DNA of 43,162 bases. Source: Sedimenticola sp. GTDB lineage: Bacteria > Pseudomonadota > Gammaproteobacteria > Chromatiales > Chromatiaceae. This document shows positions 7,511 to 42,814 of the stretch, in pieces (position 1 is the first letter of the stretch; every line of letters begins with the position of its first letter). A model generated the notes under the pieces. The model worked only from the letters and a program-made list of their open reading frames with translations, searched no databases and was not told where the DNA came from. The position numbers and the translations under genes were made by a program. Location of the stretch: positions 1 to 43,162 of the forward strand of contig JALSJZ010000151.1 of assembly GCA_026989135.1 (NCBI GenBank), in the 5' to 3' direction.

Positions 7511-7537
7511 GATCCGGTTAAGCCCGCCCAAGAATCA

Positions 7538-8764: not shown

Positions 8765-8785
8765 AGTTCAGACCTCACCTTCCCA

Positions 8786-8885: not shown

Positions 8886-8905
8886 CACAAAAGTTGCATG
8901 AGTGA

Positions 8906-9514: not shown

Positions 9515-9573
9515 CCGTAGCTCACCTTAAATGTTTCATGACTGGGGACTTGTTGTCGGTTTTTTCATTTGAT

Positions 9574-9718: not shown

Positions 9719-9768
9719 GCAATTTTAGAAAAATCTTATAAAGCTCTCTGTCAATCACCTGAATATCC

Positions 9769-10410: not shown

Positions 10411-11188
10411 GTTTATCACCCTCCTTACGCATCTTGGCCAGGAATGGCCCGAAACCGTCCGGCCCAAGCCAGAACCGCAGCAGATCCTCAATTCCTCGGG
10501 TGGTCAGGGTGGCACCGGACAGGGCATCGACCTGATGGCTGGCATCTGCATCCCATCTGTTCACCGGCCCCTTCACCAGCCGTATTGCCGGCCTCCACTG
10601 CTCATCATAGAGCTGTTTTCCAGGCCATAATTCTTTCCACTGCGGGTCATCAAACTTGCCACCCAGGCCGGGGGTTTCAGCATGCTCGTAGAAGCTCAAC
10701 CCTACGACGGTATTGCCATCACGCTTCAGCGCCAGAAACCCATAGAGTTGAGACCAGAGCCCATAGCCATGCACCGGTAGCACAATGGTTTTGATCTCTC
10801 CTGCGGCATCGCGAACCAGGTAGATTCGGGCATAGTTGGCGCGGCGCTTGATCTGGGCGATATCCTGCTCCGGGGTCAAGGCGATGCTCTGTGCCGGATT
10901 TCTGGCTGCCCGACGTGCATCGAAATGGTCAGGATCCCCCGCCTCCACAAACTCCCCTGAGGCGAGATCCACCAGCCGTGGCTCCAGCTGCCGGGAGAGC
11001 TCCTCCACGCTCTTGCCGGGTTGCAGCAGTCCGGCGGCGGCCAGTACATTGGTTTGCCGATCCAGCAGCTGGTTGGCCTGTTGTACTGGCCGCAGCAGTA
11101 CTACAGCTGTGGTGACCAGTGCAGCGCAGACCACGCAGACCACCAGCACCACGCCAACAGCTCTGCGGTTGCTATGGTCAGCCTGCAC
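10400..11188 (-). CDS. nqrC: Na+-translocating NADH:quinone reductase subunit C
   Basis: A 262-residue subunit with one N-terminal helix (~11-33) and a periplasmic FMN-binding domain. The flavinylation motif DALSGATLT places the covalently bound FMN on Thr227, the residue loaded by ApbE. The start is GTG at 11186-11188, overlapping nqrB by 11 bp. No apbE gene lies in the window, so FMN attachment must rely on one elsewhere. Confidence 0.96.
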
Positions 11189-12443: not shown

Positions 12444-12447
12444 GAGA

Positions 12448-13791
12448 TCAGCCCTCCCTCTCAATCCGGTTCAGAGTCTCACGCAGCAAGGGCCCATAAT
12501 CATATTTCCCCGGGCAGACAAAGGTGCACAGTGCCAGATCCTCTTCATCAAGCTCCAGGCAGCCCAATTGCCGGGCCATCTCCGTATCTCCGACAATCAG
12601 GGCGCGCAGCAGTTGGGTCGGCAGGATATCCAGCGGCATCACTGCTTCGTAGCTGCCCACCGGCACCATGGGTCGAGTCTCACCCCCCGTGCTGGTGGAA
12701 AAAGCAAATTTTCTGGCTGGAGGGAGGCTGGAGCTGAACAGATTGAGGGCTGAGAACTTCTCCTTGCCTGGGCGCAGCCAGCCAAACAGCTCCTGTTGGC
12801 GACCCTCTGCCAACACCGAAACCTGCAGATGATAAGGCCCCAGGTAGGCCAGTGCCGCTTGCGCCCGCCTGCCGCATAACAGCGGCCCGGAGACAATCCG
12901 GTTATCTCCGGTTTTCAGCTCACCGGTGGTCAGTTCATTCAGATTGGCTCCGATGCGGGTCTGCACCAGACGCGGCCGTTTAACCTGGGGGCCGGCCAGA
13001 GAGACCACCCGTTCAACCGGTAGAGTGCCGGTGGTAAAAAGGCGGCCGATGGCCACCACATCCTGGTAGTTCAGATGCCAAACGGATCGCCTCTCGTCTA
13101 CCGGCTCCAGAAAGTGGATATGGGTTCCCACCAGCCCGGCTGGGTGGGGGCCGGTAAATTCATGTGTGATCACGCGGGGATTGGGGCTTTCCGGGATAGC
13201 GGCACCGGATGCTTTACAGAGATGGAGCCTGCCTGGCCCGAGTTTTGCCAGAAGTTCCAGGCCATTGATGAAGTGCTGTTCCTGTCCGCGCAGAACCAGT
13301 TGCGGGTCGGCTGCCAGTGGGTTGGTATCTATAGCTGTGATAAATATGGCGTGCGGTGTGCTGTCTGCCGTCGGGATTTTACTGAACGGGCGTGTTCGCA
13401 GGCAGGTCCACAACCCGGATCGGAGCAGGTTTTCCCGAACCTGTTCACCCGTTAATCCAGTCAGCTCATCCTGGGAACAGGCGGCAAATGGAGTCTCTTC
13501 TTCCGTCTCATCTATCTTGATTGCAATGGAGAGCAGCGTACGCCTTTCACCGCGATTGATAGCGCTCACCACACCGCCCGCCGGTGCGGTGAAGTGGACG
13601 CTGGGCCTGCTCTTGTCGGTAAAGAGCAGCTGCCCCCGGCTGACCTTCTCGCCGGTCTCAACCGCCACTGCCGGTTTCAGGCCGATATAATCGCCGGCCA
13701 CCAGTGCAACCTCTGTTACTGGTTTATCTTCCAGTAACTGCTCCGGCCTGCCCGCGATGGGAAGATCCAAACCTCTCTTGATTCTAATCAT
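12448..13791 (-). CDS. nqrA: Na+-translocating NADH:quinone reductase subunit A
   Basis: A 447-residue, largely hydrophilic subunit at the cytoplasmic face, associated with quinone binding; normal length. It starts [18 protein letters not shown], typical of the family, with an RnfC-like barrel-sandwich domain and the C-terminal [12 protein letters not shown] motif. First gene of the Nqr operon; ATG 13791 follows a promoter-like pair at 13841-13869. NqrA together with NqrF identifies the complex as Nqr, not Rnf. Confidence 0.97.
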
Positions 13792-19218: not shown

Positions 19219-19731
19219 TTAGTATTGGGTAAACAGTTTGGTTTTCCCCTCTTTGTTGAAGGCCAATACGTCATAGCCGCTTGGCTTCTCTTCGGGAGGC
19301 TGCATGCCGGGTGAGTGGCGGGGCATTCCGGGAGCCGTCAGCCCGGCTACCTTGGGTTTCTCTTTCAGCAGCCGTTTAATGTCGTCAGCCGGGACATGAC
19401 CCTCAATCACATAATCGCCTATGGTAGCGGTGTGACAGGAGGCCAGATGGGGCTTCACGCCAAGCGATTGCTTGATGCTGTCCATGTCATCTCTCTGGTG
19501 TGAAATAACCGTAAAGCCCTCAGCTATAAGGTGCTCTTCCCAGGCGGTGCAGCAACCACAGGTGGGGGATTTATAGACGGTGATCTCTGGCAGTGCCTGC
19601 TTTGCGACCACGGCCGGCATGGCCTGGGAGCTCTGCTCTGATTCACTGCAGGCGGTTGTCACTACTGCAATCAATAATGCAATGCCACTGATGGTTATGG
19701 CTTTAACCGCCGCTTTTTTTTGTCTGCTCAT
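19219..19731 (-). CDS. DUF411 lipoprotein, CGCC metal-binding protein
   Basis: A 170-residue exported protein; the N-terminus ends in VVTTAC (Cys28), a plausible lipobox. The DUF411 domain has YKSPTCGCCTAWEEH (Cys58, Cys60, Cys61), the DDMDSIKQSLGV segment and ASCHTATIGDYVIEGHVP (Cys99-His100), all conserved in the family, which is linked to copper handling. A Met/His-rich stretch (GMPRHSPGM) follows. It lies between the DUF2231 membrane protein and merR. The ATG is at 19731. Confidence 0.85.
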   Translation of the reverse strand: MSRQKKAAVKAITISGIALLIAVVTTACSESEQSSQAMPAVVAKQALPEITVYKSPTCGCCTAWEEHLIAEGFTVISHQRDDMDSIKQSLGVKPHLASCHTATIGDYVIEGHVPADDIKRLLKEKPKVAGLTAPGMPRHSPGMQPPEEKPSGYDVLAFNKEGKTKLFTQY

Positions 19732-19765
19732 TGTGTTGACTCCTCAATAATAGTTAGTGGTTAAT

Positions 19766-20353
19766 TTAGTGTGCATGGCCGTCGCCTTCCGTCATCTCAT
19801 CCATGCCGCTGAAGTCCATCGACTCCTCGCTTGTCTGGCCATCGGCATGCCCTTCACCTTCGCCGTGGGCATGTGCATGGCCTGCGCCTTCGGACTGGGG
19901 CAGTGACATCACACCCAGCCCGTAACGGTAGACCACTTCGCCACCCCGCCAGGCGGTAGATAGAAGGAGAAGCTGTGCAATCAGCAGCACAATGACAAAT
20001 GCCCACCCCAGTGCCTTGCCCCTCCATACGCTGATCATCGACCAGAGTGCAATGCCGATAAACAGTGGGGTCGTGGCCAGCGCCCAGTTGCGGTGATCGG
20101 TCATCGCTGCATGTGACGGGGCATCGTGCGCCACAGTATTGTAGGCATAGAAACCTGCGGCAACCGTAATCACGGTAATGGCGGCTCCAAGCCAGAGGTT
20201 CCAGCGGGCTACAGTCGTTAACTGCTGTCGCAGGTTCTCTGGCAAACGAGAGCCAAGTAGCTGAAGTATGACAAACAGCCCGGTTGAAACGGATAACAGC
20301 GCCACCGTGAAGTGGACAAAAACGGGGTGTGAGTTGGGGATGATTTCAGGCAT
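19766..20353 (-). CDS. DUF2231 four-TM membrane protein with His-rich tail
   Basis: A 195-residue integral membrane protein with four helices (~13-32, 48-68, 88-110, 115-135). The start PEIIPNSHPVFVHFTVALLS is the DUF2231 hallmark, whose conserved histidines suggest metal or haem binding. The tail (~155-195) is rich in His, Gly and Asp/Glu, including HAHAHGEGEGHADG and EGDGHAH, as in metal-storage segments. Such proteins often lie in copper clusters; the activity is unknown. It follows the PII-like gene by 18 bp. Confidence 0.75.
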   Translation of the reverse strand: MPEIIPNSHPVFVHFTVALLSVSTGLFVILQLLGSRLPENLRQQLTTVARWNLWLGAAITVITVAAGFYAYNTVAHDAPSHAAMTDHRNWALATTPLFIGIALWSMISVWRGKALGWAFVIVLLIAQLLLLSTAWRGGEVVYRYGLGVMSLPQSEGAGHAHAHGEGEGHADGQTSEESMDFSGMDEMTEGDGHAH

Positions 20354-20371
20354 TTGAATGCTCCTTGATGG

Positions 20372-20698
20372 TCAGATTTCACTTGCTGTTGCTTCAGAGC
20401 GGGTTCGGATCCGGTAGAGTCTCTCCACCGGCAGTATGGCGACGATGCCATCTCCTTCTGCGCCTGTGTGGGCGCTGTTCATAATGGCCTGGGCAATGAG
20501 ATCAGCCTGGGCCTCATCGGTGAATATTTCAATCCGGGAATGGCTGACCATCCAGTCACTGGAGTAGAAGTCTGCGTATTCACCATACCCCTTGACCTTG
20601 GTTACGCTGATGCCGTGTACCCCCATGGCCTGTAGTACAGATTCAACCTTTTCCAGCACATCGCACCGAATAATGGCGGTCACTTTTTGATAGTTCAT
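20372..20698 (-). CDS. PII-like (GlnB-fold) small protein
   Basis: A 108-residue protein starting MNYQKVTAIIRCDVLEKVES, then KVKGYGEYADFYSSDW and HTGAEGDGIVAILPVERLYRIRT, the framework of the PII superfamily. Classical GlnB has a T-loop tyrosine in a long RGxxxxYRG region; here that loop is replaced by YGEYADFYSSDWMVSHSRIE, so nitrogen control is unlikely. PII-like proteins in metal clusters may sense metals or nucleotides. It stands in the copper gene row between the AhpD-like and DUF2231 genes (gaps 4 and 18 bp). Confidence 0.7.
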   Translation of the reverse strand: MNYQKVTAIIRCDVLEKVESVLQAMGVHGISVTKVKGYGEYADFYSSDWMVSHSRIEIFTDEAQADLIAQAIMNSAHTGAEGDGIVAILPVERLYRIRTRSEATASEI

Positions 20699-20702
20699 CT
20701 CA

Positions 20703-21272
20703 TCACCTCTGTGGGGGGGCAGGTTGGGGGGCTATTGAACAGAACCCCTGCGGTTCGACACCCAGGGCAGCATTGAATTTGCTCGACATGTTCTGGAAGC
20801 CGATCAGCCCGGTAAGTTCGATGATGGCATCATCATCAAAATAGCGGCGCAGCGCCGCAAAATGTGCTGCGGTAGGCTGCTGGTCGCTACGGGTCACCAC
20901 CTCGGTATAGGCCAGGGCGGCTCGCTCTTTGTCGCTGTAGAGGCTGCTTGTGGGGTAGTCGACCAGCATCGCCAGCTTCTCATCCGTGATGCCTCGTTTC
21001 AGTGCTGTGGCGGAGTTGATATCGACACAGAAGGAGCACCAGTTGATCTGTGAGACCCGCACTGTCACCAAGGTGCGCAGTGCGGGCTCAAGGGGGGAAG
21101 AGTCACGATCAAAGGCACCATAGAGCGACGCCAGGGTGGCAAACACCTTGGGTGAGCGTCCCCACAGCCGGGCCGGTTCCAGAACGGCACCGTATTTACG
21201 CCGCTGGTTCCAGAAAAAAAGGCGCACATACCAGGGGAATTTGTGATCCTTTGGTGTGGTGATTATTGACAT
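20703..21272 (-). CDS. Carboxymuconolactone decarboxylase/AhpD-family protein
   Basis: A 189-residue protein of the AhpD-like fold. The redox motif CSFC (Cys79-Cys82) is followed by VDINSATALKRG, the usual helix of the family; the AhpD histidine after the second cysteine is Asn86. It could reduce peroxides or thiols, consistent with oxidative stress during copper exposure, but the substrate is not readable. It lies 49 bp after copB and 4 bp before the PII-like gene. No signal peptide. Confidence 0.75.
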   Translation of the reverse strand: MSIITTPKDHKFPWYVRLFFWNQRRKYGAVLEPARLWGRSPKVFATLASLYGAFDRDSSPLEPALRTLVTVRVSQINWCSFCVDINSATALKRGITDEKLAMLVDYPTSSLYSDKERAALAYTEVVTRSDQQPTAAHFAALRRYFDDDAIIELTGLIGFQNMSSKFNAALGVEPQGFCSIAPQPAPPQR

Positions 21273-21321
21273 GGCTTTCTACATTGTTCCTGTGATGTAA
21301 TCCGCTAGGGTATAGATGCGT

Positions 21322-22224
21322 TCAGAACCAAAAACGCACACCTGCCACTGCCCTGGTGTTACTCTTCGACCCGCCGCCGGCACGGACATAATCGGCCGTG
21401 TCACCAAATCTGCCGGTCCACTCGATACCGATATAGGGGGCAAACTCACGCCGGATCTCATAGCGCAGACGCAGGCCGGCTGTGGTGTCGGAGAGCCCCG
21501 AACCCAGGCTGCGTTTGGGGTCGCCCTTACCGTAAAAATTGGCTTCAAGCCGAGGTTGGAGAATCAGTCTCTGGGTGAGCAGCAGCTCGTACTCTGCCTC
21601 AAATCCCAGTGCGCTACGGCCGTTCTCACCCAGGTAGGCGGTGATGTCCAGTTCGAACCAATAGGGTGCCAGTCCCTGGAAGCCGAAGGCGAGCCAGCTT
21701 CGATCAGGGTCTTCATCACTGCTTTCATAACGCAACCCGAGCTGGAGATCCCAAAATGTTGCAATGGCATGGCTCCACAGCAACTCGGTGTCGGCCTCTT
21801 CCAGCTTGCCATTGTTAATTTCGCCTTCGGCCTTCAATACCATGCGATCATAGTCACGCCCATACCAGGCCTGAAGATCATAGGCTGTTGCGGTGTCGCC
21901 ATCGTTGCGCACGGCCTCAAGGCGATCAACGAGCAGGGAGGCGAAGTTCTGCTCATCGGCAAAGCGTGGTCGTGGGATTGGGCCGAAGTCATAGCCATTG
22001 GAATAGGCGTGTGGATCACGGGCATCTGCCGGTGCAGACCCGCCCTGCATCATGCTGCTTTTGCCATGATTCATGGGATGTTCCGTATCCTTCATTGCTG
22101 CATCAGCTGAGGCAGGCATTCTTCCATGATTCATATCGCTTTGTGCCCAAGCCGGGGAGAGGCTGAGCAGCAGCAGAGTGGTTATGACCAAAGCGGCTGG
22201 TATGTTTATATCTATCGCCTTCAT
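21322..22224 (-). CDS. copB: Copper resistance outer-membrane protein B
   Basis: 300 residues from ATG 22224, which has AGGAG seven bases upstream and opens a signal peptide ending SPAWA; the frame could also begin at 22242 in a 4-bp overlap with copA. A Met/His-rich N-terminus (MNHGRMP, HPMNHGKSSMM) precedes a CopB/PcoB beta-barrel domain (~80-300) ending in VAGVRFWF, an outer-membrane type terminal Phe. It would work with the CopA multicopper oxidase encoded immediately upstream. Confidence 0.93.
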   Translation of the reverse strand: MKAIDINIPAALVITTLLLLSLSPAWAQSDMNHGRMPASADAAMKDTEHPMNHGKSSMMQGGSAPADARDPHAYSNGYDFGPIPRPRFADEQNFASLLVDRLEAVRNDGDTATAYDLQAWYGRDYDRMVLKAEGEINNGKLEEADTELLWSHAIATFWDLQLGLRYESSDEDPDRSWLAFGFQGLAPYWFELDITAYLGENGRSALGFEAEYELLLTQRLILQPRLEANFYGKGDPKRSLGSGLSDTTAGLRLRYEIRREFAPYIGIEWTGRFGDTADYVRAGGGSKSNTRAVAGVRFWF

Positions 22225-22238
22225 TATATTCTCCTCGC

Positions 22239-23990
22239 TCATGCCACCACGACTTCACGGAACATACCTGCATCCATGTGATAGAGCAGGTGGCAGTGCC
22301 ACGCCCAGCGCCCCAATGCATCGGCATGCACCAGAAAGCTGACCCGTTGAGCCGGTTGCACGCTGATGGTGTGTCGACGGGTTATGAATTGCCCCTCTGC
22401 GTTCTCCATTTCGCTCCACATGCCGTGCAGGTGCATGGGATGGGTCATCATGGTGTCGTTGTGCAGAATCACCCGCAGGCGCTCGCCATGGCGAAAATGA
22501 ATGGGCGTGGATTTGCCGAACTCCAGGCCGTCGATGGACCAGGTGTAGCGATCCATGTTGCCGGTTAGGTGCAACTCGATCTCCCGCTCTGCTCCACGTG
22601 GGTCAAGCGGCCCTCCCAGGGTGTGCAGATCTGCATAGGTCAATACCCGTCGGCCGTTGTTGCGCAGGCCGATGCCGGGGTCGTTGAGGTTGATGCGTGG
22701 CCTGTCGACACGCATGTCGACGCTGGGGCCGTATTCGGTGCTGGCGTGGCGGACGGCAGGAGTGGCGGTATGGTTGCCATGCTGCATCATCCCTTGCATG
22801 CCGGCCATCGCGCCACCCTGGGCTGCTGCACCCATCATGTCCGTCATGGTCAGCCATTGTGGGGCGTCCATTTCGGGCACTGCTGCTGTCAACCCAGTGC
22901 GGCTGGTCAGTGTTCCGCGGGTGTAGCCGGTGCGATCCATCGACTGGGCGAAGATGGTGTAGGCCCCCTCTTTTGGTGTGACGATAACATCGTAGGTCTC
23001 GCCGGGGCCGAAACGGAACTCATCCACCGTTACCGGCTCGACATTCTGGCCATCGACCTGCACCACGGTCATCTCCAGGCCGGGGATGCGCACATCGAAG
23101 AAGCTCTGGGTGCCGCTGCTGATGAAGCGCAGCCTGATCCGTTCACCGGGGTTGAACAGCCCGGTCCAGTTGGCTGCCGGTGTGGCACCGTTCATCAGAA
23201 AGGTGTAGGTGTAACCGGAGATGTCGGCCAGATCAGTTGGTGTCATGCGCATCCGGTTCCACATCCGCCGTTTACTGAGGGCAGCGCTGAGCCCTTTATC
23301 AGCTACGTCGTGGAAGAAGTCGACGGTGGTTGGCTCATTGAAGTTGTAGTAGTCGCTCTGTTTTTTCAGTTTGGTGAAGACGGCCATCGGGTCTTCATCG
23401 GTCCAGTCGGAGAGCTGCACGATGTAGTCGCGGTCGGCGCGGATCGCTTCACCCTCCGCCGGATCGACGATGATGGTGCCATACATGCCGGTCTGCTCCT
23501 GGAATCCGGAGTGGGAGTGGTACCAGTAGGTGCCGCTCTGCTGCACCTTGAAGCGGTAGATGAAGGTTTCACCGGGGGCGATTCCGGGAAAACTGACTCC
23601 CGGCACGCCGTCCATCTGGTAGGGCAGAATGATGCCGTGCCAGTGAATCGAGGTGGAGACGTTGAGCTGGTTGGTGACGCGAATGGTCACTGTCTCGCCC
23701 TCGCGCCAGCGCAGAGTAGGCCCTGGAATCGAGCTGTTGATGGAGGTTGCTATCCGGGGTGTGCCGGTGAAATTGACAGCACTCTCGGCAACAGTGAGAT
23801 CGAACTCCCTGCCGCTGAGTACGGGGGCTGTGCCGCTAGCAGTTTGTGAGGATGGCGTTGCCCAGGCCGGTTTAAGCCATGGAGCCAAACCGAGTAACAG
23901 ACCGCCGCTGACCAAACCCTGAACAAATCGGCGGCGGGGCAAATTGGAAAGTGCCTGGGAATCTGGGGCAGTGTGCTTCATCTGTTTCAT
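22239..23990 (-). CDS. copA: Periplasmic multicopper oxidase, copper resistance protein A
   Basis: 583 residues, exported by Tat: PRRRFVQGL at 18-26. The four copper-ligand regions are HWHG (116-119), WYHSHSG (156-162), HPMHLHGMW (517-525) and HCHLLYHMDAGM (565-576), giving type 1, 2 and 3 copper sites. A Met-rich segment (MGAAAQGGAMAGMQGMMQHG, ~390-410) is typical of PcoA/CopA and binds Cu(I). It oxidises Cu(I) in the periplasm. It overlaps the copB frame at its 3' end. This gene shares its historical symbol with the P1B ATPase at 16212-18677 but is a different protein. Confidence 0.95.
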   Translation of the reverse strand: MKQMKHTAPDSQALSNLPRRRFVQGLVSGGLLLGLAPWLKPAWATPSSQTASGTAPVLSGREFDLTVAESAVNFTGTPRIATSINSSIPGPTLRWREGETVTIRVTNQLNVSTSIHWHGIILPYQMDGVPGVSFPGIAPGETFIYRFKVQQSGTYWYHSHSGFQEQTGMYGTIIVDPAEGEAIRADRDYIVQLSDWTDEDPMAVFTKLKKQSDYYNFNEPTTVDFFHDVADKGLSAALSKRRMWNRMRMTPTDLADISGYTYTFLMNGATPAANWTGLFNPGERIRLRFISSGTQSFFDVRIPGLEMTVVQVDGQNVEPVTVDEFRFGPGETYDVIVTPKEGAYTIFAQSMDRTGYTRGTLTSRTGLTAAVPEMDAPQWLTMTDMMGAAAQGGAMAGMQGMMQHGNHTATPAVRHASTEYGPSVDMRVDRPRINLNDPGIGLRNNGRRVLTYADLHTLGGPLDPRGAEREIELHLTGNMDRYTWSIDGLEFGKSTPIHFRHGERLRVILHNDTMMTHPMHLHGMWSEMENAEGQFITRRHTISVQPAQRVSFLVHADALGRWAWHCHLLYHMDAGMFREVVVA

Positions 23991-24784: not shown

Positions 24785-25331
24785 TCATAGAACCAGCCGC
24801 TCCCACTGGAGTTTGGCGTGCTTAAAATTTATAATTAAGCCTACTCTAAGCCCTGTGATTTTCAGGTAGTTCAAAATTTGTCCTTTTTCATGGTTTGTTA
24901 TCCTGTCGATGGTTTTGGTATCCACAACAATCTGTTCGAATACGATAAGATCAGGGATATATTCACCAACTTTTATGCTCTTATAGAGAACATCAAAGCG
25001 CGGCTGTTGCTGAGCGGGAATATTATTCAGTCCAAATTCCACAATCATGGCGTTTTCATATGGTTTTTCCAGCAAACCATGCCCTAGGAGGCTGTCCGAG
25101 AATAGGAACCACAATGAGGAAAAGCTGGATTTGGCCAAATTCTTCCATTATTTTCGTTAAATATACTCAATATTCGCCTTAAATAATGAAAAAACCTGAC
25201 TCAAACCAGCGTCCCCTCACCATGATTCCTATTCTCGGACAGACTCCTAGCGTATTTAAGACCTCCATTGCGCATCCAACAATTTTATGGGTCTCTTCCT
25301 TAAACAAAAATCTGTGTTTATCCGTGTTCAT
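24785..25331 (-). pseudogene. GxxExxY-family gene interrupted by a 167-bp MITE
   Basis: The N-terminal piece (25251-25331) encodes MNTDKHRFLFKEETHK then IVGCAMEVLNTLG. The C-terminal piece (24785-25087) encodes LGHGLLEKPYENAMIVEFGL and later YIPDLIVFEQIVVDTKTIDR and LNYLKITGLRVGLIINF. Removing bases 25084-25246 rejoins the two in frame as NTLGHGLLEKPYE, the GxxExxY core. The net insertion is 163 bp, so it shifts the frame. GxxExxY proteins are small PD-(D/E)xK-like proteins of unknown role. The start lies within an ACACAGAT-type repeat, as often seen for the family. Confidence 0.85.
25084..25250 (-). mobile_element. 167-bp MITE, copy 1, inserted in the GxxExxY gene
   Basis: CTAG-to-CTAG element of 167 bp with ~36-bp terminal inverted repeats starting CTAGGAGGCTGTCCGAGAAT. 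The interior of ~95 bp has no transposase. It is inverted relative to the copies at 32035-32201 and 42033-42199. Reconstruction of the host gene shows one CTAG before insertion, so CTAG is the target-site duplication. A 4-bp CTAG-like target is used by the IS5 subgroup, a possible but unproved source of the transposase. Confidence 0.9.
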
Positions 25332-32022: not shown

Positions 32023-32035
32023 GTTTCCTTAATCC
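32009..32035. promoter_or_regulatory. Palindrome overlapping the cus -35 box, operator candidate
   Basis: GGATTAA (32009-32015) and TTAATCC (32029-32035) form 7-bp inverted arms 13 bp apart, covering the -35 box of the cus promoter. A two-component or repressor site would suit this place. Its outer base is the first base of the MITE CTAG, so the element inserted right at the edge. Confidence 0.3.
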
Positions 32036-32201
32036 TAGGAGGCTGTCCGAGAATAGGAATCATGGTGAGGGGACGCTGGTTTGAGTCAGGTTTTTTCATT
32101 ATTTGAGGCGAATATTGGGCATATTTAACGAAAATAATGGAGAAATCTGGCCAAATCCAGCTTTTCCTCACTGTGGTTCCTATTCTCGGACAGCCTCCTA
32201 G
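32035..32201 (+). mobile_element. 167-bp MITE, copy 2, upstream of the cus operon
   Basis: CTAG-bounded, with the same inverted ends and interior (TTTTTTCATTATTTGAGGCG) as the copies at 25084 and 42033. The pre-insertion site would read TTAATCCTAGAAAAGG. It separates the cus promoter from anything formerly upstream and so may have removed regulatory sites. No transposase. Confidence 0.9.
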
Positions 32202-32684: not shown

Positions 32685-35099
32685 TCAGGCGGTATTTTGG
32701 TCTGGTAGTGGTTTGAACAGCTCTTCCAGCATCTCGATAATAAAACGCCGATCAGCACTATCTTCAGCGGTTTCCAGCTGTGCCAGTAGTTTTTTAGCCC
32801 CCATTTCAGCCGCAGTTATCCGGATGGTCTGTCCCATTGGGCGGGTCTGCTGAGCGCCATCCAGCAGGGCAGCGGCCAGCATTTTATCGATGGCTTGTTC
32901 GGTATAACCGTGCAGCTCTTTCAGCTCCAGCAGACGGGCAAGCCCATTGGCGGCGGCCAGCCTTACGCCATTGGCCGGATCTTCCAGACTGTTGAGAAAT
33001 CGCTCTGCAATGGCTGTTGTTGTGACTTCTTCCAGCACCATATGATCTGCTTTGATCGGGTCTGCCCCGTTCATGACCAGGTCGGTGATGGCATTGATTG
33101 CTTCGATGCGTATATCTTTGATTTCATCTGCCAATGCAGAGAGCAGTGGTGCAATGGCGGCACGGTTTCCCAGTCGTCCCAATGTACGGGCGCAGGCCAG
33201 ACGGCGGTCTCGTTCGCCAATGCTGAGCTGCGCGACCAGTGGGCCGAGGTTGTCCATCAACCCCGGAGTGGCGGGGGCTTTGGCTGCAATTTTACCCAGT
33301 GAGGAGATTGCTTCGCAGGCCAGTGCTTCATCTGGCTCGCTCTGCATAATGGTTGTAAGTGCGGCAACAGCAGCTTCGTTATTGCTGTCAGCCAGTGCGC
33401 GGGCAGCCAGTTGACGGACATCCGCAGCCACATTGAGGTTGCGTTTTACCAGCATGCGTTCGGCCTCTTTTTTCTGCCGTTCCGCCATGTCGAGGTAGTG
33501 GATGGCATCGCTATCAAGTGGCTCGGATTCGTCGTCGGCTTCCAGGTTGAGTGTGGCCTCCACATTGTCCATGGCGATGGCATCCAGGGTGGAGATGGCG
33601 GGCTTCTGCTCTTCGTAGACAACTCGTGGTGCAGTTGTGGGCAGTGCTATTTCTGGTTTACCGTCGATATCGCTGGTTTTGCGAACGGTGGTATCCAGCT
33701 TTACGGCGTTATCTGCAGCAGCTTCAGCCTCTTCTTCCGTTGCTGTCTCGATTGTTTCGATGCCTTCATGCTCTTCTGGTTCCTCCTTGGATGAGTCGGC
33801 TTGAATCTCTCCGGTCAGTGTGGCGATGACGATGTTGAACGGGGCGTTACTCTCTTCTTGCGCGTCATGGTTTTCCGATGGCTGCGGCTGGGCAGCCAGG
33901 CTGACCAGTACGGTCAGTGCTGCCAGGCGCACACTCTGCTCTTGGTCGCTGATGGTTGCTGTGAGTGCCTCGATCAGATCGTCATCGATGATTGCGATCT
34001 GTTCCAGTGCCTGTGCTGCTGCACGGCGCAGCATCGGGTGTTTGCTGCTGTCGATCAGGAGTGCTGTGAGGCTGGGGATGGTGGATGCATCACCGTTTTT
34101 GCCCAATAGAGCGCAGGCGCTGGCACCTACGGTGGGGCTGGGGTCATTCAGGCTGGTGGTGATGGTTTCGATTGTCTCAGCTGATAGCGCCCCTTTTTCA
34201 ATGCTCTGGCTGAGGGCGTTGAAGCTGCTGTTGCGTACGGCTCCGCTGGGATCATTCAGCAGGGTCAGCAGTTGCTCGTAGAGGTTGTCAGAAGCGCTGG
34301 TGTTGCTGGCCAGTTTGCAGGCGCTCTGCATGGCTGCGACGCGAACTTTTTCGTTCTCATCCCTCATCAGCAGCATGATGGCGGGCAGGTATTTGGTTGC
34401 ACCCTGTGCGGCCAAGGCGCTGATGGCGGCGGCTCTAACCTCTGGGGTATCGTCTTGCAGAGCCTGACTGAGTGCGCGGGTGGCCTCCAGAGAGTTGACC
34501 GTGCCCAGTGCTTTGGCGGCGCGTCGGCGGCCTTGCGGTGTATTCTCTTGCAGGCGCTGGATGAGTACCTCGATTCCCCGTCCCCCTATCTGTGCCAGCA
34601 CCTTTAGCACTTCGCTCTCAATATCCTGATGTTCATGGTTGTCCATCACCTCAATGAGGATATCAATAGCCCGTTCCTCTTTGGCTTTGCCCAGCGCCCG
34701 AATGGCCTCTAGCTGCACGTCCCACCAGGTATCCCAGTCGTCATCCATGTCCAGCCTTTCGGGGCGTTCTGCGGCCACTTTAAGCAGTGCCTCACTGGCC
34801 TCTTTGCCGCCAAGAACGCCAAGCGTGGTGGCGATTACGGTGCAGATCTCGCCGCTGGAGTCGTTCTCCAGTGATTCAATCAGGGGGAGGATTGCTTTGC
34901 TATTGCCGATTTCACGCAGTGCTTCGGCGGCATCGACACAGACATCGATATCTTCATCCCGCAGCCGTGCGATCAGTGCGTCAACGGCAGAGTTGTCGCC
35001 AAATACTCCTAAGGCGCGGGCGGCATAGCAACGATCAGCCTCGTCGCCGGTTTCTAGCAGGCTGGTCAGGGCTGCTATTGCTTGGTGCTGTACTGCCAT
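32685..35099 (-). CDS. HEAT/PBS-lyase-type repeat protein
   Basis: 804 residues made of ~30-residue alpha-helical repeats of the pattern AVxALIxRLRDEDxxVRxxAAxAL. One block covers ~1-415 and a second ~540-790; between them lies an acidic, low-complexity linker (~430-535, e.g. EEPEEHEGIETIETATEEEA). No enzyme domain, signal peptide or membrane helix is seen, so it is probably a cytosolic scaffold. ATG 35099 has AGGAAG seven bases upstream. It is divergent from the idr cluster across an 816-bp gap; a link to that cluster is not demonstrated. Confidence 0.8.
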   Translation of the reverse strand: MAVQHQAIAALTSLLETGDEADRCYAARALGVFGDNSAVDALIARLRDEDIDVCVDAAEALREIGNSKAILPLIESLENDSSGEICTVIATTLGVLGGKEASEALLKVAAERPERLDMDDDWDTWWDVQLEAIRALGKAKEERAIDILIEVMDNHEHQDIESEVLKVLAQIGGRGIEVLIQRLQENTPQGRRRAAKALGTVNSLEATRALSQALQDDTPEVRAAAISALAAQGATKYLPAIMLLMRDENEKVRVAAMQSACKLASNTSASDNLYEQLLTLLNDPSGAVRNSSFNALSQSIEKGALSAETIETITTSLNDPSPTVGASACALLGKNGDASTIPSLTALLIDSSKHPMLRRAAAQALEQIAIIDDDLIEALTATISDQEQSVRLAALTVLVSLAAQPQPSENHDAQEESNAPFNIVIATLTGEIQADSSKEEPEEHEGIETIETATEEEAEAAADNAVKLDTTVRKTSDIDGKPEIALPTTAPRVVYEEQKPAISTLDAIAMDNVEATLNLEADDESEPLDSDAIHYLDMAERQKKEAERMLVKRNLNVAADVRQLAARALADSNNEAAVAALTTIMQSEPDEALACEAISSLGKIAAKAPATPGLMDNLGPLVAQLSIGERDRRLACARTLGRLGNRAAIAPLLSALADEIKDIRIEAINAITDLVMNGADPIKADHMVLEEVTTTAIAERFLNSLEDPANGVRLAAANGLARLLELKELHGYTEQAIDKMLAAALLDGAQQTRPMGQTIRITAAEMGAKKLLAQLETAEDSADRRFIIEMLEELFKPLPDQNTA

Positions 35100-35791: not shown

Positions 35792-35806
35792 TGGCTTGAA
35801 AAATGC
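35792..35806 (+). promoter_or_regulatory. Sigma-54-like promoter candidate for the idr cluster
   Basis: TGGCTTGAAAAATGC matches the -24/-12 pattern TGGCACG-N4-TTGC at 12 of the 15 positions counting the N4 as free, with the GG and GC dinucleotides at the right spacing. It lies 110 bp before the first peroxidase gene. A sigma-70 promoter elsewhere in the leader is equally possible. Confidence 0.25.
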
Positions 35807-35915: not shown

Positions 35916-37022
35916 ATGGGTGTACGAGTCACGAGTGGGCACCGCCTTCTTGCTGCCATGATTGGCATCGGGATGGTATTCGGTGCCCAAGCGGCCAAGG
36001 TGCCGGATCTCGGACCTTTGCCGCCAATTAAGGTCAATAAGGCGAAGGCTGAGCTGGGTAAACGATTGTTCTTTGATAAGCGACTTTCTGGTAATGCAGC
36101 TATTGCCTGTAGCACTTGTCATGACCCCAAACAGGGCTGGACGCAGAATAAACCGCTCTCTGATGGCTATCCAGGCAATGGCCACTTCCGCAATTCACCG
36201 ACCCTTGTCAATGTGGCGCATAAAAAGGTCTGGAATCATGATGGACGTATCGGCACCAGCCTAAACGATATGACCCGTGAGATGATCACGGAAGATTACA
36301 TCATGAATATGGACATGCGCATTATGCAAGAGCGCATAAAGCAAGATCCTGTATACCTCGAGATGTTCAAGGATGCAGGTTATGGTGAGCCATCCAATGG
36401 CAAGGTGCGCAAGGCTATTCCTGAATACCTGAAATCGCTCACCTCGCGTAATGCACCTTTTGATACAGGCAAAATGTCTGCCTCTGCCAAAAAGGGTATG
36501 AAACTGTTTAAAGGTAAAGCAGGTTGCATCCAGTGTCACAACGGCCCGCTGGCTTCTGATGGCAAGGCGTATAACACAGGTGTTCCTGAAAACTTCGATA
36601 TATTTCTTGACCCTAATAACCATCAGGCCTTTATCTCCTTTGCCATGTTTCAGGGCATTGAAAATTACATGAACCTCAAGCGTGACCCTGGCTTTTACAA
36701 CGTTACCTTGAATAAGGCCGATATTGGCAAATTCATCACCCCCAGTCTGCGGGAGCTGAAATACACAGCGCCTTATATGCATAACGGCATGCTGGCAACG
36801 CTAGATGATGTTGTTGCCTTCTATAACAATGGTGGTGGAAAGGACAGCAAAAAAAGTTCGTTGCTCAAACCGCTGGGTCTGAGCAAAGGTGAGCAGAAAG
36901 ATCTGGTGGCCTTCCTGCTTTCACTCTCTGGTGATCAGCTGACGACCGCCGAGCATGTCTGGCAGGGTGGTTACCCAGCTGAATATACCGCCATCAAGGA
37001 CTGGAAAAATGTCCGTAACTAA
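35916..37022 (+). CDS. idrP: Dihaem cytochrome c peroxidase/MauG-family protein of the iodate reductase cluster (IdrP type)
   Basis: 368 residues: a signal peptide (~1-26, ending AQA) and two haem sites, CSTCH (65-69) and CIQCH (204-208), in the bacterial dihaem peroxidase framework (LGKRLFFDKRLSG, YTAPYMHNGMLATLDDVVAF). In known iodate reductase clusters two such proteins accompany IdrAB and are thought to remove peroxide or reactive iodine by-products in the periplasm. ATG 35916 has GGAGGAA seven bases before it. The second peroxidase follows 15 bp on. Whether it is P1 or P2 I cannot say. Confidence 0.82.
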   Translation: MGVRVTSGHRLLAAMIGIGMVFGAQAAKVPDLGPLPPIKVNKAKAELGKRLFFDKRLSGNAAIACSTCHDPKQGWTQNKPLSDGYPGNGHFRNSPTLVNVAHKKVWNHDGRIGTSLNDMTREMITEDYIMNMDMRIMQERIKQDPVYLEMFKDAGYGEPSNGKVRKAIPEYLKSLTSRNAPFDTGKMSASAKKGMKLFKGKAGCIQCHNGPLASDGKAYNTGVPENFDIFLDPNNHQAFISFAMFQGIENYMNLKRDPGFYNVTLNKADIGKFITPSLRELKYTAPYMHNGMLATLDDVVAFYNNGGGKDSKKSSLLKPLGLSKGEQKDLVAFLLSLSGDQLTTAEHVWQGGYPAEYTAIKDWKNVRN

Positions 37023-37037
37023 GTCGAGGAGACAGAT

Positions 37038-38231
37038 ATGAAAAAAGTAATAGCATTTCGACCTCTCCTGTTGGCGGCTGTTGCGGGTGCAATAATTGCA
37101 ACAGGCTGCGTCGCACAGGAAAGCAAAAAAGGGATGAACGACCCACCTGCTCTGGCACCTTTGGGCCCTCCGCCCATACCTGCTGATAATCTACAGAGTC
37201 CTGCCAAGATAGCGTATGGAAAGATGCTCTTCTTTGATCCGCGTTTGGGTGGTGATGCCTCAACAGGTTGCTCAACCTGCCATGAACCAGATCAAGGCTG
37301 GTCATGGGCTGAGGATATCTCTCGTGGCTATCCGGGTACGGTGCATTGGCGTAGCAACCAGACCATCATCAACGCAGCTTACTATAGCAAGCTGTTCTGG
37401 GCCGGCTCTTCCAAGTCGCTGGAATCTCAAGCCAGATCTGCCGCCAGAGGTGGTGTTGCCGGTAACGGTGAGACTGGCATCATGGAGGCTCGTCTGGCGT
37501 TGATTCCTAAATATGTAGAGCTCAATAAGAAGGTCTTCGGGACGGAATGGCCGCTAGAGCGTGATGCTTTTCGTGCTATTGCTGCCTTTGAGCGAACGCT
37601 GGTACAGCGGGATACCCCGCTGGATAAATACCTGCTCGGAGACAAGACCGCGCTCAGTGAAGAGCAGGTTCGTGGCAAGAAGATATTTGAAGGTAAAGGC
37701 GGCTGTATCCAGTGTCATAACGGTGCATTGGCCTCTGATGAGGGCTTCTACAATATCGGCGTTCCTGGTGTAAAGCGTTGGGAATATGATGGTCTGGCGC
37801 AGATCACTTTCCGCTTTGAGATCTATGCCAAAGGCGCTCCAGAAGAGATGTATCGCACCGTTAAGGATGATCCGGGCGCCTACTTTCGGAGCAAAAACAA
37901 ATGGGATCTGGGGAAGTTTCGCACGCCCTCCTTACGCTATGCCGTCTATACCGCACCTTACATGCACAGTGGTCAATTTGACACTTTAGAGGATGTGGTG
38001 GATTTCTATAACGTAGGTGGCTTTGCAGCAGATGGCCGCACAACCGGTTTCCCTGAAACCAAAAGCCCGCTGATTAAGCCGCTGGGGCTGACGGATGATG
38101 AGAAAGAGGATCTGGTCGCGTTTATCGAAGCCTTCTCCGGTGAGGAAATTCTTATGGATGCACCTGAGTTGCCCCCGTATGCAGCGATATTCACCAAGGC
38201 AGAGCTTCAAGCAGCACAGGAGGCAAAGTAA
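37038..38231 (+). CDS. idrP: Second dihaem cytochrome c peroxidase/MauG-family protein (IdrP type), probable lipoprotein
   Basis: 397 residues with an N-terminal signal ending IIATGC (Cys24), a plausible lipobox that would tether it to a membrane. Haem motifs CSTCH (78-82) and CIQCH (223-227) and the YTAPYMHSGQFDTLEDVVDF segment place it in the same family as the preceding gene, with clear but moderate similarity. A Pro-rich linker (PPALAPLGPPPIP) follows the anchor. GAGGAGA precedes the ATG. The stop overlaps the Rieske gene start by one base (TAATG), so translation is coupled. Confidence 0.82.
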   Translation: MKKVIAFRPLLLAAVAGAIIATGCVAQESKKGMNDPPALAPLGPPPIPADNLQSPAKIAYGKMLFFDPRLGGDASTGCSTCHEPDQGWSWAEDISRGYPGTVHWRSNQTIINAAYYSKLFWAGSSKSLESQARSAARGGVAGNGETGIMEARLALIPKYVELNKKVFGTEWPLERDAFRAIAAFERTLVQRDTPLDKYLLGDKTALSEEQVRGKKIFEGKGGCIQCHNGALASDEGFYNIGVPGVKRWEYDGLAQITFRFEIYAKGAPEEMYRTVKDDPGAYFRSKNKWDLGKFRTPSLRYAVYTAPYMHSGQFDTLEDVVDFYNVGGFAADGRTTGFPETKSPLIKPLGLTDDEKEDLVAFIEAFSGEEILMDAPELPPYAAIFTKAELQAAQEAK

Positions 38232-38794
38232 TGACTGATTTAAAAAGTAAAGAGGATCAGACAGCAAATGAGCATGGCAGGTGCATGCTCAATCGCCGAG
38301 ATTTTCTCATGTATAGCGGAACTGCTGTGGTTGCAGCAAGTACCGTCTCTCTCAGTCTCTTTCCGGGTACAGCCAAGGCGCGGGTAGTGGGTTACCCGCG
38401 TAAGAAAATCGGCAAATTGAGCGCACTGAAAGATAATCAGCTGGTGGGCTTTGTCTATCCCGATGAGAAGGCTCAAAACTTCCTCGTAAAGATGGATGGT
38501 GCCAAGGCCGGTGGTGGTCTTGGTCCAAAACGTGATGTTGTTGCGTTCAGCTATACCTGTACCCACCAGGGTGGCTCCATGGTAGGTACCTACAAGGCTG
38601 TTGGGCCGCATCGTGTAATGGGTCAATGCCCGCTGCATCTCTCCACCTACGATCTGACCCGCCACGGTATTATCGTGTCGGGTCAAGCCTACCAGAGCCT
38701 GCCTCAAGTGATGCTGGAACTGGACGGTGATGACATTTACGCCGTTGGCGTGATGGGCCTGATTTATGGCCGTCACGACAACCTGCAATCCTAG
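38231..38794 (+). CDS. idrB: Rieske 2Fe-2S small subunit of iodate reductase (IdrB/AioB type)
   Basis: 187 residues. The Tat signal LNRRDFLMYSGTAVV (20-34) would carry the folded complex, including the leaderless IdrA, to the periplasm. The Rieske ligands are Cys110-x-His112 and Cys133-x2-His136. The two extra cysteines that form the usual Rieske disulfide are Gly115 and Leu135 here, so the cluster pocket lacks that bond. It passes electrons between a c-type cytochrome and the molybdenum subunit. It lies between the second peroxidase (1-bp overlap) and idrA (13 bp). Confidence 0.85.
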   Translation: MTDLKSKEDQTANEHGRCMLNRRDFLMYSGTAVVAASTVSLSLFPGTAKARVVGYPRKKIGKLSALKDNQLVGFVYPDEKAQNFLVKMDGAKAGGGLGPKRDVVAFSYTCTHQGGSMVGTYKAVGPHRVMGQCPLHLSTYDLTRHGIIVSGQAYQSLPQVMLELDGDDIYAVGVMGLIYGRHDNLQS

Positions 38795-38807
38795 GAGGAA
38801 GGATAAG

Positions 38808-41519
38808 ATGTCTACAAAATATTACCTCCCCAAGGACAAAACTCCGCTGCCACCAAAGAGTGCGGAAGTCCTTACGACCTGTTGTGACTACTGTATCGTT
38901 GCCTGCGGTTACAAGGTTTATCGTTGGCCATCCAATGCCCCAGAGGGTGGCGCCAAGGCTAATCAGAATGCCTTTGGGGTGGATTTCCCCACCGGTGCGC
39001 TACAGCCCTGGGTAGCCCCTACCCAGCATAATACGGTGCTGCATAAAGGCAAGCCGCACAATGTTGTCATTGTCCCCGACAGGGATGCCGAAGTGGTTAA
39101 CATTAGTGGCGACTCCAGCATCCGCGGTGGTTGTATTGCTCAGAAGGTCTATAACCCTGACAAGCCAACCCGTGATCGCCTGATGTCACCCCTGATGCGC
39201 ATCAATGGCATGTTGCAGCCTGTGAGTTGGGATCTTGCACTGACTGTTGCAGCAGAGGTAGGCAAGCATGTCATTAAAGATCATGGTGTCAATGCCTATT
39301 CGGTGAAGACCTACTCCTATCAGTACATGGAGAATACCTACGCGATCAAGAAGTATGCGCGTCGGCATATCAAAACTGCCAGCTTCACGTTTCACGATAC
39401 CCCCTCTGATGTGACCTCCACGCCAGGCTTTCGTGATGCCGGGTTTGATAACTTTGGCCCAGCCTATAGTGATTGGCGTGATGCAGAGACACTGATTATT
39501 GCAGGTACTGATCCGTACGAAACAAAAAGCATCATCTTTACCCAGTACATCAAACCGGCCATTGATAATGGCCAAAAAACCATCTGGTTTAACCCGCGTG
39601 AAACGGCCGGTCTCTCCTATGCCAAGAGTCGTGGCAATGCCATTCATTTTCAGATCTATCCTGGTACAGACTCCCTGGTAATGGGGGCTATTGCCCGTGT
39701 CATTCTGGAAAATGGCTGGGAAGATAAGGATTGGATCGACAAGTGGGTCAACAACAGTTGGGAGTCCAGCTCTGGCTTTGGGCAAGGCACCCGTAATACC
39801 CCCTGGCAGTGGCGTACCACCTGGGGTAAATTCCAGACCAATGGCATGTATGGCAAGAAGGGCTATAAAGCCTGGGTTAGCTCTCAGAAAGAGTATGAGC
39901 CTGAAGAGGCCGCCAGGATTGCAGGTGTCTCAGCGGCTGATATTCGCAAGGCTGCTGAGTGGATGTCCAAGCCCAAAGCTGACGGCAGCCGCCCTAAAAC
40001 CTCACTCGGTATTGAGAAGGGTTTTTACTGGTCCAACAACACAGGTAACACCAATGCGGTGAGCGCCCTGGCAATTACCGTGGGTGCGGGCGGTCGTCCG
40101 GGTCAGGTAGTGGGTCGCTTCGGTGGACACCAGCGTGGTGGCACAGGTGGCGGCAGCTACCCTCGCAACAAGTCACCTGAGAAGGTGCCGGGTCGCCGTC
40201 GTCGCTCTCTGGATACTGATCGCTGGCTGGTTTCAGGTCATACCCGCTTCGCCCATGTGATCGGTACCACCTGGATTCAGGCCATGGTTGGCACAGGGGG
40301 TCTCAACGCCAAGTTTGAAGAGCTGGTAACCAATAATCCAAACCAGGTTAGCTCTCATGACCAGGATAAGATCATTGCGACCCTGAAAGCGCGTGCTGAC
40401 TCTGGCGGCATGGTGGTGATTAATCAGGATATCTACCTGCGAGATCCCATCGGCTCCAAGTATGCTGATATCGTCTTTCCAGCGGCTACCTGGGGCGAGG
40501 AGGATTTTACCCGGGCAAATGGTGAGCGTCGTATAAGGCTCTATTCAAAGTTCTATGATGCGCCGGGTGATGCCAAACCCGACTGGTGGATTATTGCTGA
40601 ATTAAGCAAAAAGATGGGGTTTGAAGGCTTTGACTGGAAGGATGCCAACGAGGTTCTGGAAGAGTCGGCACGTTTCAGCCGAGGCAATCGAAAGTCTTAC
40701 CACATGGTTATGGTTGCTGCCCATGCCGAGGGTAAAACCCTGCATGAGAAGCTGCGTGAGTTTGGCACCACCGGTATTCAGGGGCCAACCTACTACAACT
40801 ACGAGACAGGGGAGCTGAGCGGCTCAGTCCGGCTGCATGACACCACCCTTACGGAAGCTGATCTGAAGAAAAAATATGGATCAAACGGCTTCCAGCGGGC
40901 AAATGTTGTGAACAAGAAGGTAACGCACTTCAACTCCCAGACCGGAAAGAACAACCTCCAGAAGCATCCCTGGAGTCTCTTCTCTGATTACTGGAGCTGG
41001 ATGAAGCCTAAAGGCGATGAGTTGTGGCATACCAATGGTCGTATTAATGAGGTCTGGCAGTCAGGTTTTGATGACCTGCTGCGGCGTGCCTACATTGCCC
41101 AGCGCTTCCCTGAGAACTGGGTTGAGATCCACCCGGATGATGCCGCAGCCCGTGGCATTGAGGGGGGAGACCAGGTGGTCATGTACTCTGATCGTATCCC
41201 TAACTATGTCAACACCATCAAAGGCGTTGGTGGCAATGATTTTCAGTTCTCCGAGCTGATGAAGAATGGTCACATTGAACTCTCTGAGGGTGCGACGACT
41301 GCTGTGGCAATGGTCACCGATGCGGTTAAAAAAGGGGTGATCTTCTCCTACTTTCTCGACCCACGGCAGCCAAGCAACATCCTGCAAGGTCGTGTAGTGG
41401 ATAATATCAGTGGTAACTACAACTACAAAATGGGTGTCGCCAGGATCAAGAAGATTGGTGAGTCAAAGTACAAGAAAGAGTTCCGCTCTTTCTCTTTTGC
41501 GCCACGTAATATTGTCTGA
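38808..41519 (+). CDS. idrA: Molybdopterin catalytic subunit of iodate reductase (IdrA, arsenite-oxidase-like DMSO reductase family)
   Basis: 903 residues from ATG 38808, which has AGGAGGA nine bases upstream; an earlier in-frame start at 38766 lies inside idrB. The N-terminal Cys26-x2-Cys29-x3-Cys33 with SS at 103-104 in the fourth position fits the 3Fe-4S site of AioA. By eye, AioA arsenite ligands His195, Arg419 and His423 match His196, Arg437 and His441, but Glu203 is Ser204 and the Mo-facing Ala199 is Ser200. No Tat signal, as in AioA. The sequence is ~80 residues longer than AioA. The adjacent dihaem peroxidases make iodate reduction far likelier than arsenite oxidation. Confidence 0.83.
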   Translation: MSTKYYLPKDKTPLPPKSAEVLTTCCDYCIVACGYKVYRWPSNAPEGGAKANQNAFGVDFPTGALQPWVAPTQHNTVLHKGKPHNVVIVPDRDAEVVNISGDSSIRGGCIAQKVYNPDKPTRDRLMSPLMRINGMLQPVSWDLALTVAAEVGKHVIKDHGVNAYSVKTYSYQYMENTYAIKKYARRHIKTASFTFHDTPSDVTSTPGFRDAGFDNFGPAYSDWRDAETLIIAGTDPYETKSIIFTQYIKPAIDNGQKTIWFNPRETAGLSYAKSRGNAIHFQIYPGTDSLVMGAIARVILENGWEDKDWIDKWVNNSWESSSGFGQGTRNTPWQWRTTWGKFQTNGMYGKKGYKAWVSSQKEYEPEEAARIAGVSAADIRKAAEWMSKPKADGSRPKTSLGIEKGFYWSNNTGNTNAVSALAITVGAGGRPGQVVGRFGGHQRGGTGGGSYPRNKSPEKVPGRRRRSLDTDRWLVSGHTRFAHVIGTTWIQAMVGTGGLNAKFEELVTNNPNQVSSHDQDKIIATLKARADSGGMVVINQDIYLRDPIGSKYADIVFPAATWGEEDFTRANGERRIRLYSKFYDAPGDAKPDWWIIAELSKKMGFEGFDWKDANEVLEESARFSRGNRKSYHMVMVAAHAEGKTLHEKLREFGTTGIQGPTYYNYETGELSGSVRLHDTTLTEADLKKKYGSNGFQRANVVNKKVTHFNSQTGKNNLQKHPWSLFSDYWSWMKPKGDELWHTNGRINEVWQSGFDDLLRRAYIAQRFPENWVEIHPDDAAARGIEGGDQVVMYSDRIPNYVNTIKGVGGNDFQFSELMKNGHIELSEGATTAVAMVTDAVKKGVIFSYFLDPRQPSNILQGRVVDNISGNYNYKMGVARIKKIGESKYKKEFRSFSFAPRNIV

Positions 41520-41554: not shown

Positions 41555-41579
41555 CCGGAACTTCGGTTCCGCCATTTTT
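41555..41579 (+). terminator. Rho-independent terminator after idrA
   Basis: CGGAAC-TTCG-GTTCCG (41556-41571) is a perfect 6-bp stem with a stable UUCG loop, followed by a T run (41575-41579). It lies 36 bp after the idrA stop and closes the cluster. Confidence 0.85.
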
Positions 41580-41590
41580 GTTTGGATGTT

Positions 41591-41626: not shown

Positions 41627-42032
41627 TAACAGACCGGATCCTGATAGATATACTCCAGCTTCTGCCGCAACATCTCATCACCCTGAACCAATTGAGGATG
41701 GCTCCCCTCCTGCCAGAGCTGATACTCCCGATCACGCTTGTGGCGTTTTTTGAACCAGGAAAACGGCTTCAGCAGCCGCTCAACATTGTGTTCCTTCAGA
41801 TAATCGATCAAGCAGCGGGCGGTGAATGATTTAAACTGCGCCAGCTCTTTTTCCAGGTTATTGCTCTACACAATCATATGCAGATGATTTTCGAGCATCA
41901 CATAGCCGTAGATACGCCAGCCGTTTTCCCGCTGGCGGTGGGTCAGTGCTTCAAGGATGATCTCAGCAGTGGCGGGGCGCGCCGGTGCTGCATCCCCACG
42001 CAGCTCGTGGGGACGAGAAAAGACATTATCAC
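41626..42032 (-). pseudogene. Broken REP-associated Y1 transposase
   Basis: The minus-strand frame reads ALTHRQRENGWRIYGYVMLE, NHLHMIV, then TAG (about 41868-41870), then SNNLEKELAQFKSFTARCLI and on to YIYQDPVC and a stop. HLH in NHLHMIV is the HUH nickase motif of the Y1/RAYT family. The 5' end is lost at the MITE at 42033, a stop interrupts the middle and the usual end after YIHQNPVKxG is replaced by transposon-end sequence. It cannot make an active protein. Confidence 0.8.
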
Positions 42033-42195
42033 CTAGGAGCCTGTCCGAGAATAGGAATCATGGTGAGGGGAAGATGGTTTGAGCCAGATTTTTTCATTAT
42101 TTGAGGCGAATATTGGGCATATTTAACGAAAATAATGGAGAAATCTGGCCAAATCCAGCTTTTTCTCACTGTGGTTTCTATTCTCGGACAGGCTC

Positions 42196-42199
<4 letters not shown>
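42033..42199 (+). mobile_element. 167-bp MITE, copy 3, between the Y1 remnant and the PIN toxin
   Basis: Same length, CTAG borders, terminal repeats and interior as the other two copies, in the orientation of copy 2. Its right-hand CTAG includes the stop codon of the PIN-domain gene. It differs from copy 2 at several positions, including CCTGTCC instead of GCTGTCC near both ends. Confidence 0.9.

Positions 42200-42814
<615 letters not shown>

Follow-up and report, generated by a model that had tools for sequence, protein, structure and literature searches.

We analysed a 43,162-nucleotide stretch of a Sedimenticola sp. genome (contig JALSJZ010000151.1, positions 1 to 43,162; hereafter the window), in which four genes at 35916-41519 are likely to constitute a clade-I iodate reductase (idr) operon. 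The four-gene cluster is itself an ordinary iodate-reductase cluster, with an order already published. What may be new lies outside 35916-41519, namely a divergent gene for a HEAT-repeat protein that appears to be an undescribed fifth part, found almost only in bacteria with clade-I idr. Marine iodine speciation is shaped by iodate reduction, with idr being read as a marker gene, and the two published neighbourhood studies consulted describe little that is conserved near idrABP1P2. A HEAT protein inherited along with idr would represent a second marker for one IdrA clade and a handle on IdrAB maturation or regulation. It also calls for caution, as many marine 'idrA' sequences fall in a clade that shares only about 50% identity with the probable group of the confirmed enzymes.

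The cluster, with P denoting peroxidase genes, is arranged P-P-B-A:

35916..37022, plus strand: first dihaem peroxidase-like gene (IdrP); 368 amino acids (aa), Sec-type signal, two CXXCH motifs, CCP_MauG 1.4e-35

37038..38231, plus strand: second dihaem peroxidase-like gene (IdrP); 397 aa, two CXXCH motifs, CCP_MauG 4.3e-36

38231..38794, plus strand: IdrB, Rieske [2Fe-2S] subunit, predicted to be exported by twin-arginine translocation (Tat); 187 aa, TIGR02694, NRRDFLM twin-arginine motif

38808..41519, plus strand: IdrA, molybdenum catalytic subunit; 903 aa, without signal peptide, TIGR02693

Family models and motifs confirm the content given in the original prediction, which was made from the DNA letters alone: two dihaem peroxidases, a Rieske protein with Tat signal and a 903-aa AioA-like subunit. 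The tight coupling of the unit is equally apparent, with all four open reading frames (ORFs) on the plus strand, gaps of 15, -1 and 13 bp, and the idrB start overlapping the stop codon of the second peroxidase gene by one base. A longer idrA ORF (917 aa, from 38766) would overlap idrB; relatives start as at 38808, where the idrA start is best placed. IdrB scores above the cut-off of the arsenite-oxidase small-subunit model TIGR02694 (109 bits, cut-off 95.65), and IdrA above that of the AioA model TIGR02693 (403 bits, cut-off 359). IdrA comprises Rieske_3, Molybdopterin and Molydop_binding domains, and its [3Fe-4S] spacing, CX2CX3CX70S (C26, C29, C33 and S104), is identical to that reported for IdrA of DN11 (PMC10149662). 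As in idrABP1P2 systems, the Tat signal resides on IdrB (motif in 82 of the 86 IdrB compared) and none is present on IdrA, while both the [3Fe-4S] and the Rieske motifs are found. The N-terminus of the second peroxidase displays a weak lipobox-like ATGC, a lipoprotein pattern shared by a minority of relatives only (28/82). Scanning the window against Rfam and for tRNAs returned no match.

We assign the genes to idr, as originally predicted, rather than to arsenite oxidase (aio) because the AioA neighbourhoods compared are devoid of peroxidases, IdrA falls in a peroxidase-linked clade, and a pocket glutamate is replaced by serine. In all five AioA neighbourhoods compared, a set drawn from plasmid sequences only (NT-26, Thermus, Pseudosulfitobacter, Hydrogenophaga and Paraburkholderia), the order is B-A and peroxidases are absent, congruent with the prediction for arsenite oxidase operons. 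IdrA shares 30.6-32.6% identity with these five AioA, as against 48-91% with relatives linked to peroxidases. A tree of 50 sequences, obtained by a quick search with Shimodaira-Hasegawa-like approximate likelihood ratio test (SH-aLRT) support only and with a long-branch outgroup, separates the five AioA (SH-aLRT 92) from 44 Idr-type proteins (97); its sequence set does not extend to the confirmed IdrA of SCT, IR-12, DN11 and TC-10 or to Roseovarius azorensis, which has been shown to reduce iodate (PMC11445184). The window protein is placed outside AioA, in clade I (support 100), together with sister species, Sedimenticolaceae, Vibrionaceae, Endozoicomonas and Alphaproteobacteria. All Idr-type and AioA sequences compared retain the pocket residues His196, Arg437 and His441. 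The glutamate position, which we take to be Glu203 of the arsenite pocket in Alcaligenes faecalis AioA as mapped by alignment, is however Ser in 32 of 34 clade-I proteins (Ala in 2), Asp in 7/7 of clade II and Glu in 5/5 AioA, with Ser204 occupying it in the window IdrA. Moreover, 16 positions invariantly distinguish Idr from Aio in the set used.

The gene order had been thought reversed relative to other idr clusters; this is rejected, and with it the claimed novelty. Complete P1-P2-B-A on one strand is present in 70 of 80 related named loci, the remaining 10 end at contig edges with a partial order that agrees, and A-B-P-P occurs in none. The first and second peroxidase homologues hold the same positions in all complete relatives, and an Azonexus plasmid, as annotated by NCBI, also shows P-P-B-A. 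Together with the statement that idrAB is 'always preceded' by two peroxidases (PMC8801600), this shows that the name idrABP1P2 does not follow the direction of transcription. Accessions AYH44092-44095 of DN11, for A, B, P1 and P2 (PMC10149662), would suit a cluster read from P2 through to A, in which case the first window gene may correspond to the published idrP2, judging by accession order alone. Among the 70 loci, 69 hold one complete set, while that of Sedimenticola hydrogenitrophicus (L040) holds a complete set and a second one cut by the stretch end, the two clusters (7054-12691 and 19573-22690) being about 7 kb apart. In another locus (L148, G351:C78), a clade-II-like IdrA and an IdrB were seen with no peroxidase found beside them, the C-terminal part being matched apart from the rest; this may be a peroxidase-free branch. 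Interrupted idrA genes were also encountered, split into two ORFs in L159 (8274-10974, G845) and broken by in-frame stops in L137-L141 (G762, a 40% complete draft).

Upstream of the operon lies the proposed companion:

32685..35099, minus strand: HEAT-repeat protein, proposed idr companion; 804 aa, divergent from idr, no signal peptide seen

The protein is probably cytoplasmic, given the lack of a visible signal sequence. AlphaFold2 models two confident alpha-solenoids, at about 2-430 and 504-795 (mean predicted local distance difference test score 83.5). The disordered linker between them has an invariant S503-T504 at its end, part of an STL-x-AI motif that is at least 90% conserved. A PDB search with the model recovered generic HEAT scaffolds only (PP2A-A, CAND1 and karyopherins), and no curated NCBIfam family reached its cut-off. 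No link between iodate and HEAT repeats was found in the literature, subscription papers and supplements lying outside reach, such that prior mention elsewhere is possible.

Long HEAT relatives of 20-40% identity adjoin idr in many loci, and a profile search detected the gene in the available flanks of 24 of 93 idr loci. In Vibrio, Moritella, Photobacterium, Marinomonas, Endozoicomonas and others, HEAT and the first peroxidase gene diverge with 190-432 bp between them; in Alphaproteobacteria (L098, L110 and L111, at 47-154 bp) and Thiotrichaceae (at 1-1.2 kb), HEAT lies 3' of idrA on the same strand. In several Sedimenticolaceae it resides about 10 kb upstream of idr, across a four-gene block. 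Among the loci read, 28 with ample flanks have no HEAT gene inside those flanks, in part because it lies just past the flank (for example L038/G355). A plasmid tblastn search with a Vibrio HEAT query gave 0 matches at 1e-10, and the profile search a weak divergent HEAT (66 bits) beside idr on the Vibrio THAF190c plasmid. In L099 the HEAT gene is followed, on the same strand, by genes for a sensor kinase and a sigma-54 response regulator; in L070 the same three stand in a row, divergent from idr.

HEAT and idr also co-occur across genomes. In the class sample (369), 13 genomes possess both, 2 idr only, 1 HEAT only and 353 neither; the family sample (116) gives 19, 4, 1 and 92, and the phylum sample (398) 2, 3, 0 and 393, respectively. 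Both idr-only genomes of the class sample harbour the lowest-identity IdrA (50 and 54%), on the clade-II side of the tree. The idr-only genomes of the family sample are G003, G762 (40% complete), G774 (84% complete) and G800 (clade II), and its HEAT-only genome, G752, is 83% complete. In the drafts G159, G208, G217, G219 and G223 the two occupy separate contigs, and the co-occurrence is therefore not explained by close adjacency alone. On this pattern, the HEAT protein may well be a functional partner of clade-I idr. With the balance about even, clade-I iodate reductases could form a distinct system, whose fifth part, a cytoplasmic two-solenoid HEAT protein, assembles or regulates IdrAB and marks the marine clade as against the confirmed freshwater and terrestrial one. 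We lean towards an assembly factor rather than a signalling partner, because clade-II loci retain kinase and regulator without HEAT.

Several points weigh against this proposal. The Fisher p values of the class and family samples (5e-21 and 6e-17) treat genomes as independent, ignoring relatedness, and are descriptive only. G003, an idr genome of this genus with 96% completeness, has no HEAT gene, and neither do the sampled clade-II genomes; HEAT is thus not essential to iodate reduction as such. Finally, and bearing on the iodate-reductase reading itself, no clade-I enzyme is biochemically confirmed in the data reached, the confirmed strains seemingly belonging to the other clade.

It is possible, if doubtful, that the operon is a plain idr unit and HEAT an unrelated neighbour hitchhiking on the same transferred segment, as its placement adjacent to or within about 10 kb of idr in many loci and its absence from some idr genomes would suggest. 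The separate contigs in several drafts from different families argue against this, as does the retention of the partner across three placements (divergent upstream, co-directional downstream and distant), and HEAT is found alone in 1 of 354 idr-free class-sample genomes. Less probable is that the clade-I enzyme reduces another oxyanion (bromate, chlorate, nitrate or a mixture), with iodate incidental: identity to clade II, the probable home of the confirmed enzymes, is only 48-54%, the pocket serine stands against aspartate there, and the HEAT partner is specific to clade I, yet gene set and order match the confirmed systems (PMC8692401, PMC8801600, PMC10149662) and the Rieske and [3Fe-4S] architecture is retained. 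An Aio variant with added peroxidases is very improbable, for although the best curated family matches are the AioA and AioB models, the closest solved homologue is AioA and three AioA pocket residues are kept, the protein sits in a separate clade at 31% identity, lacks the acidic pocket residue, is split from Aio at the 16 invariant positions, and has no aio-type regulator, cytochrome or ars gene seen beside the window cluster; arsenite oxidase identity was rejected on clade and pocket residue.

For a clade-I iodate reductase operon, we infer the following path, with substrate, electron route and peroxidase role taken from literature models. IdrAB would be made in the cytoplasm and exported as a pair via the Tat signal of IdrB. 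Periplasmic c-type cytochromes would then pass electrons through the Rieske [2Fe-2S] and [3Fe-4S] centres to the molybdenum-bis-molybdopterin guanine dinucleotide site, where iodate would be reduced to hypoiodous acid or iodide, and the two dihaem peroxidases would clear peroxide or other oxidant arising on the way. The HEAT protein would most likely be a dedicated helper in the cytoplasm, acting either as a scaffold for IdrAB cofactor loading or quality control before export, or as a partner of the regulatory system.

The predicted leader is real, spanning 816 bp 5' of the first peroxidase gene, and contains a candidate promoter:

35792..35806, plus strand: sigma-54-type -24/-12 promoter-like element TGGCTTGAAAAATGC, 109 nt 5' of the first peroxidase gene

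The element fits TGGC-N8-TGC, the sigma-54 consensus form, and idr transcription probably starts here. Scanning 600 bp in 81 loci placed 28 of 49 such matches in the 100-124 nt bin, 13 at 25-99 nt and a handful elsewhere, with many loci having it roughly 100-114 nt upstream, a clustering that represents conservation, not independent origin, as the loci are related. A sigma-54 regulator has been reported close to idr in DN11 (PMC10149662), in keeping with this site. At the 3' end, the proposed strong terminator was recovered, with the qualification that 'strong' is generous:

41556..41571, plus strand: short terminator-like hairpin, UUCG loop, then T run CCATTTTTGT; stem only 6 bp

Similarity to sister species spans this hairpin and ends at about 41583-41587. 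Past 41587, transposase remnants, a repeat element and a toxin-antitoxin pair follow:

41629-42057, minus strand: REP (repetitive extragenic palindromic)-associated tyrosine transposase, broken, just 3' of idr

42033-42199, 32034-32201 and 25084-25250: 167-bp palindromic repeat element, three copies in the window

42196-42582 and 42575-42793, both minus strand: PIN toxin with Phd/YefM antitoxin

The 167-bp element has about 40 copies in the genome, a 189-contig draft; two window copies bracket HEAT and idr, and the element lies at or close to the ends of several contigs. DUF4124-ntrB-ntrC is found 3' of idr in four sister species, in one of which the region is split over two contigs. The host DUF4124 gene is on contig C168, with a copy of the element between it and the contig end, which indicates that the 3' side was rearranged at, or misassembled through, the element. 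All six species of the genus examined carry idr, G005 as only an idrA fragment at a contig end, likewise followed by DUF4124-ntrB-ntrC. The presence in all six congeners, with the same 3' neighbours in at least four, points to a gene resident in the genus and not to a new arrival. Recent transfer, as implied by the suggested self-contained transferable module or by a mobile iodate reduction island (IRI) inserted at variable sites, finds no clear support here. The guanine-plus-cytosine content of idr is 51.5%, against 53.8% for the window. More widely, idr is present in 23/116 genomes of the family, which is taken to be Sedimenticolaceae because it contains Candidatus Thiodiazotropha, in 15/369 of the class and in 5/398 of a phylum sample to which the host belongs. 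This patchy pattern is compatible with older transfer or loss, in agreement with the literature. Elsewhere in the window, adjoining minus-strand ORFs at 8906-13791 and 3738-7531 resemble an Rnf electron-transport cluster by eye, with multi-CXXCH cytochromes nearby.

Compared with known systems, the window operon shares with idrABP1P2 of Pseudomonas sp. SCT, Denitromonas sp. IR-12, Azoarcus sp. DN11 and Aromatoleum TC-10 (PMC8692401, PMC10149662, PMC8801600) the molybdenum and Tat Rieske subunits and two dihaem peroxidases in one unit, with peroxidase genes first, the same [3Fe-4S] spacing and an IdrA without its own signal. It differs in probably belonging to the other IdrA clade, with 48-50% identity to the Azonexus/Thiothrix group, and in having a divergent HEAT gene instead of a linked sensor kinase and sigma-54 regulator, c551 and moaA, none of which is in the window. 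The confirmed enzymes probably belong to clade II, because the neighbourhoods of Azonexus and Thiothrix (kinase, sigma-54 regulator, cytochrome c and moaA) match those described for SCT, DN11 and TC-10. The putative idr of Vibrio, Moritella, Endozoicomonas and Sedimenticola (PMC8692401) are of clade I and have the order of the window, with HEAT adjoining idr in the loci read from Vibrio, Moritella and Endozoicomonas.

Between HEAT and idr, many Sedimenticolaceae possess a gene block not present in the window genus. It was observed 5' of idr in L054 (553-6311), L159 (3-4781), L038 (914-6693) and about 25 other loci, and encodes a CydA-like protein (~634 aa), a cytochrome c (~277 aa), a ~802-aa fusion of multiple cytochrome c domains with an ethylbenzene-dehydrogenase-gamma-like haem domain, and SCO1. 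The CydA-like gene occurs in 17 family-sample genomes with idr and 2 without, and the block is a possible electron path from quinol to IdrAB. AioBA of NT-26 and Thermus resembles the window cluster in its Rieske and molybdenum subunits and in B preceding A, and differs in lacking peroxidases, in its identity of about 31% and in its pocket glutamate. Analogously, the window HEAT protein has the solenoid fold in common with HEAT_2 and PBS-lyase-like HEAT proteins, and is set apart by its two solenoids, disordered linker and invariant ST within STL-x-AI.

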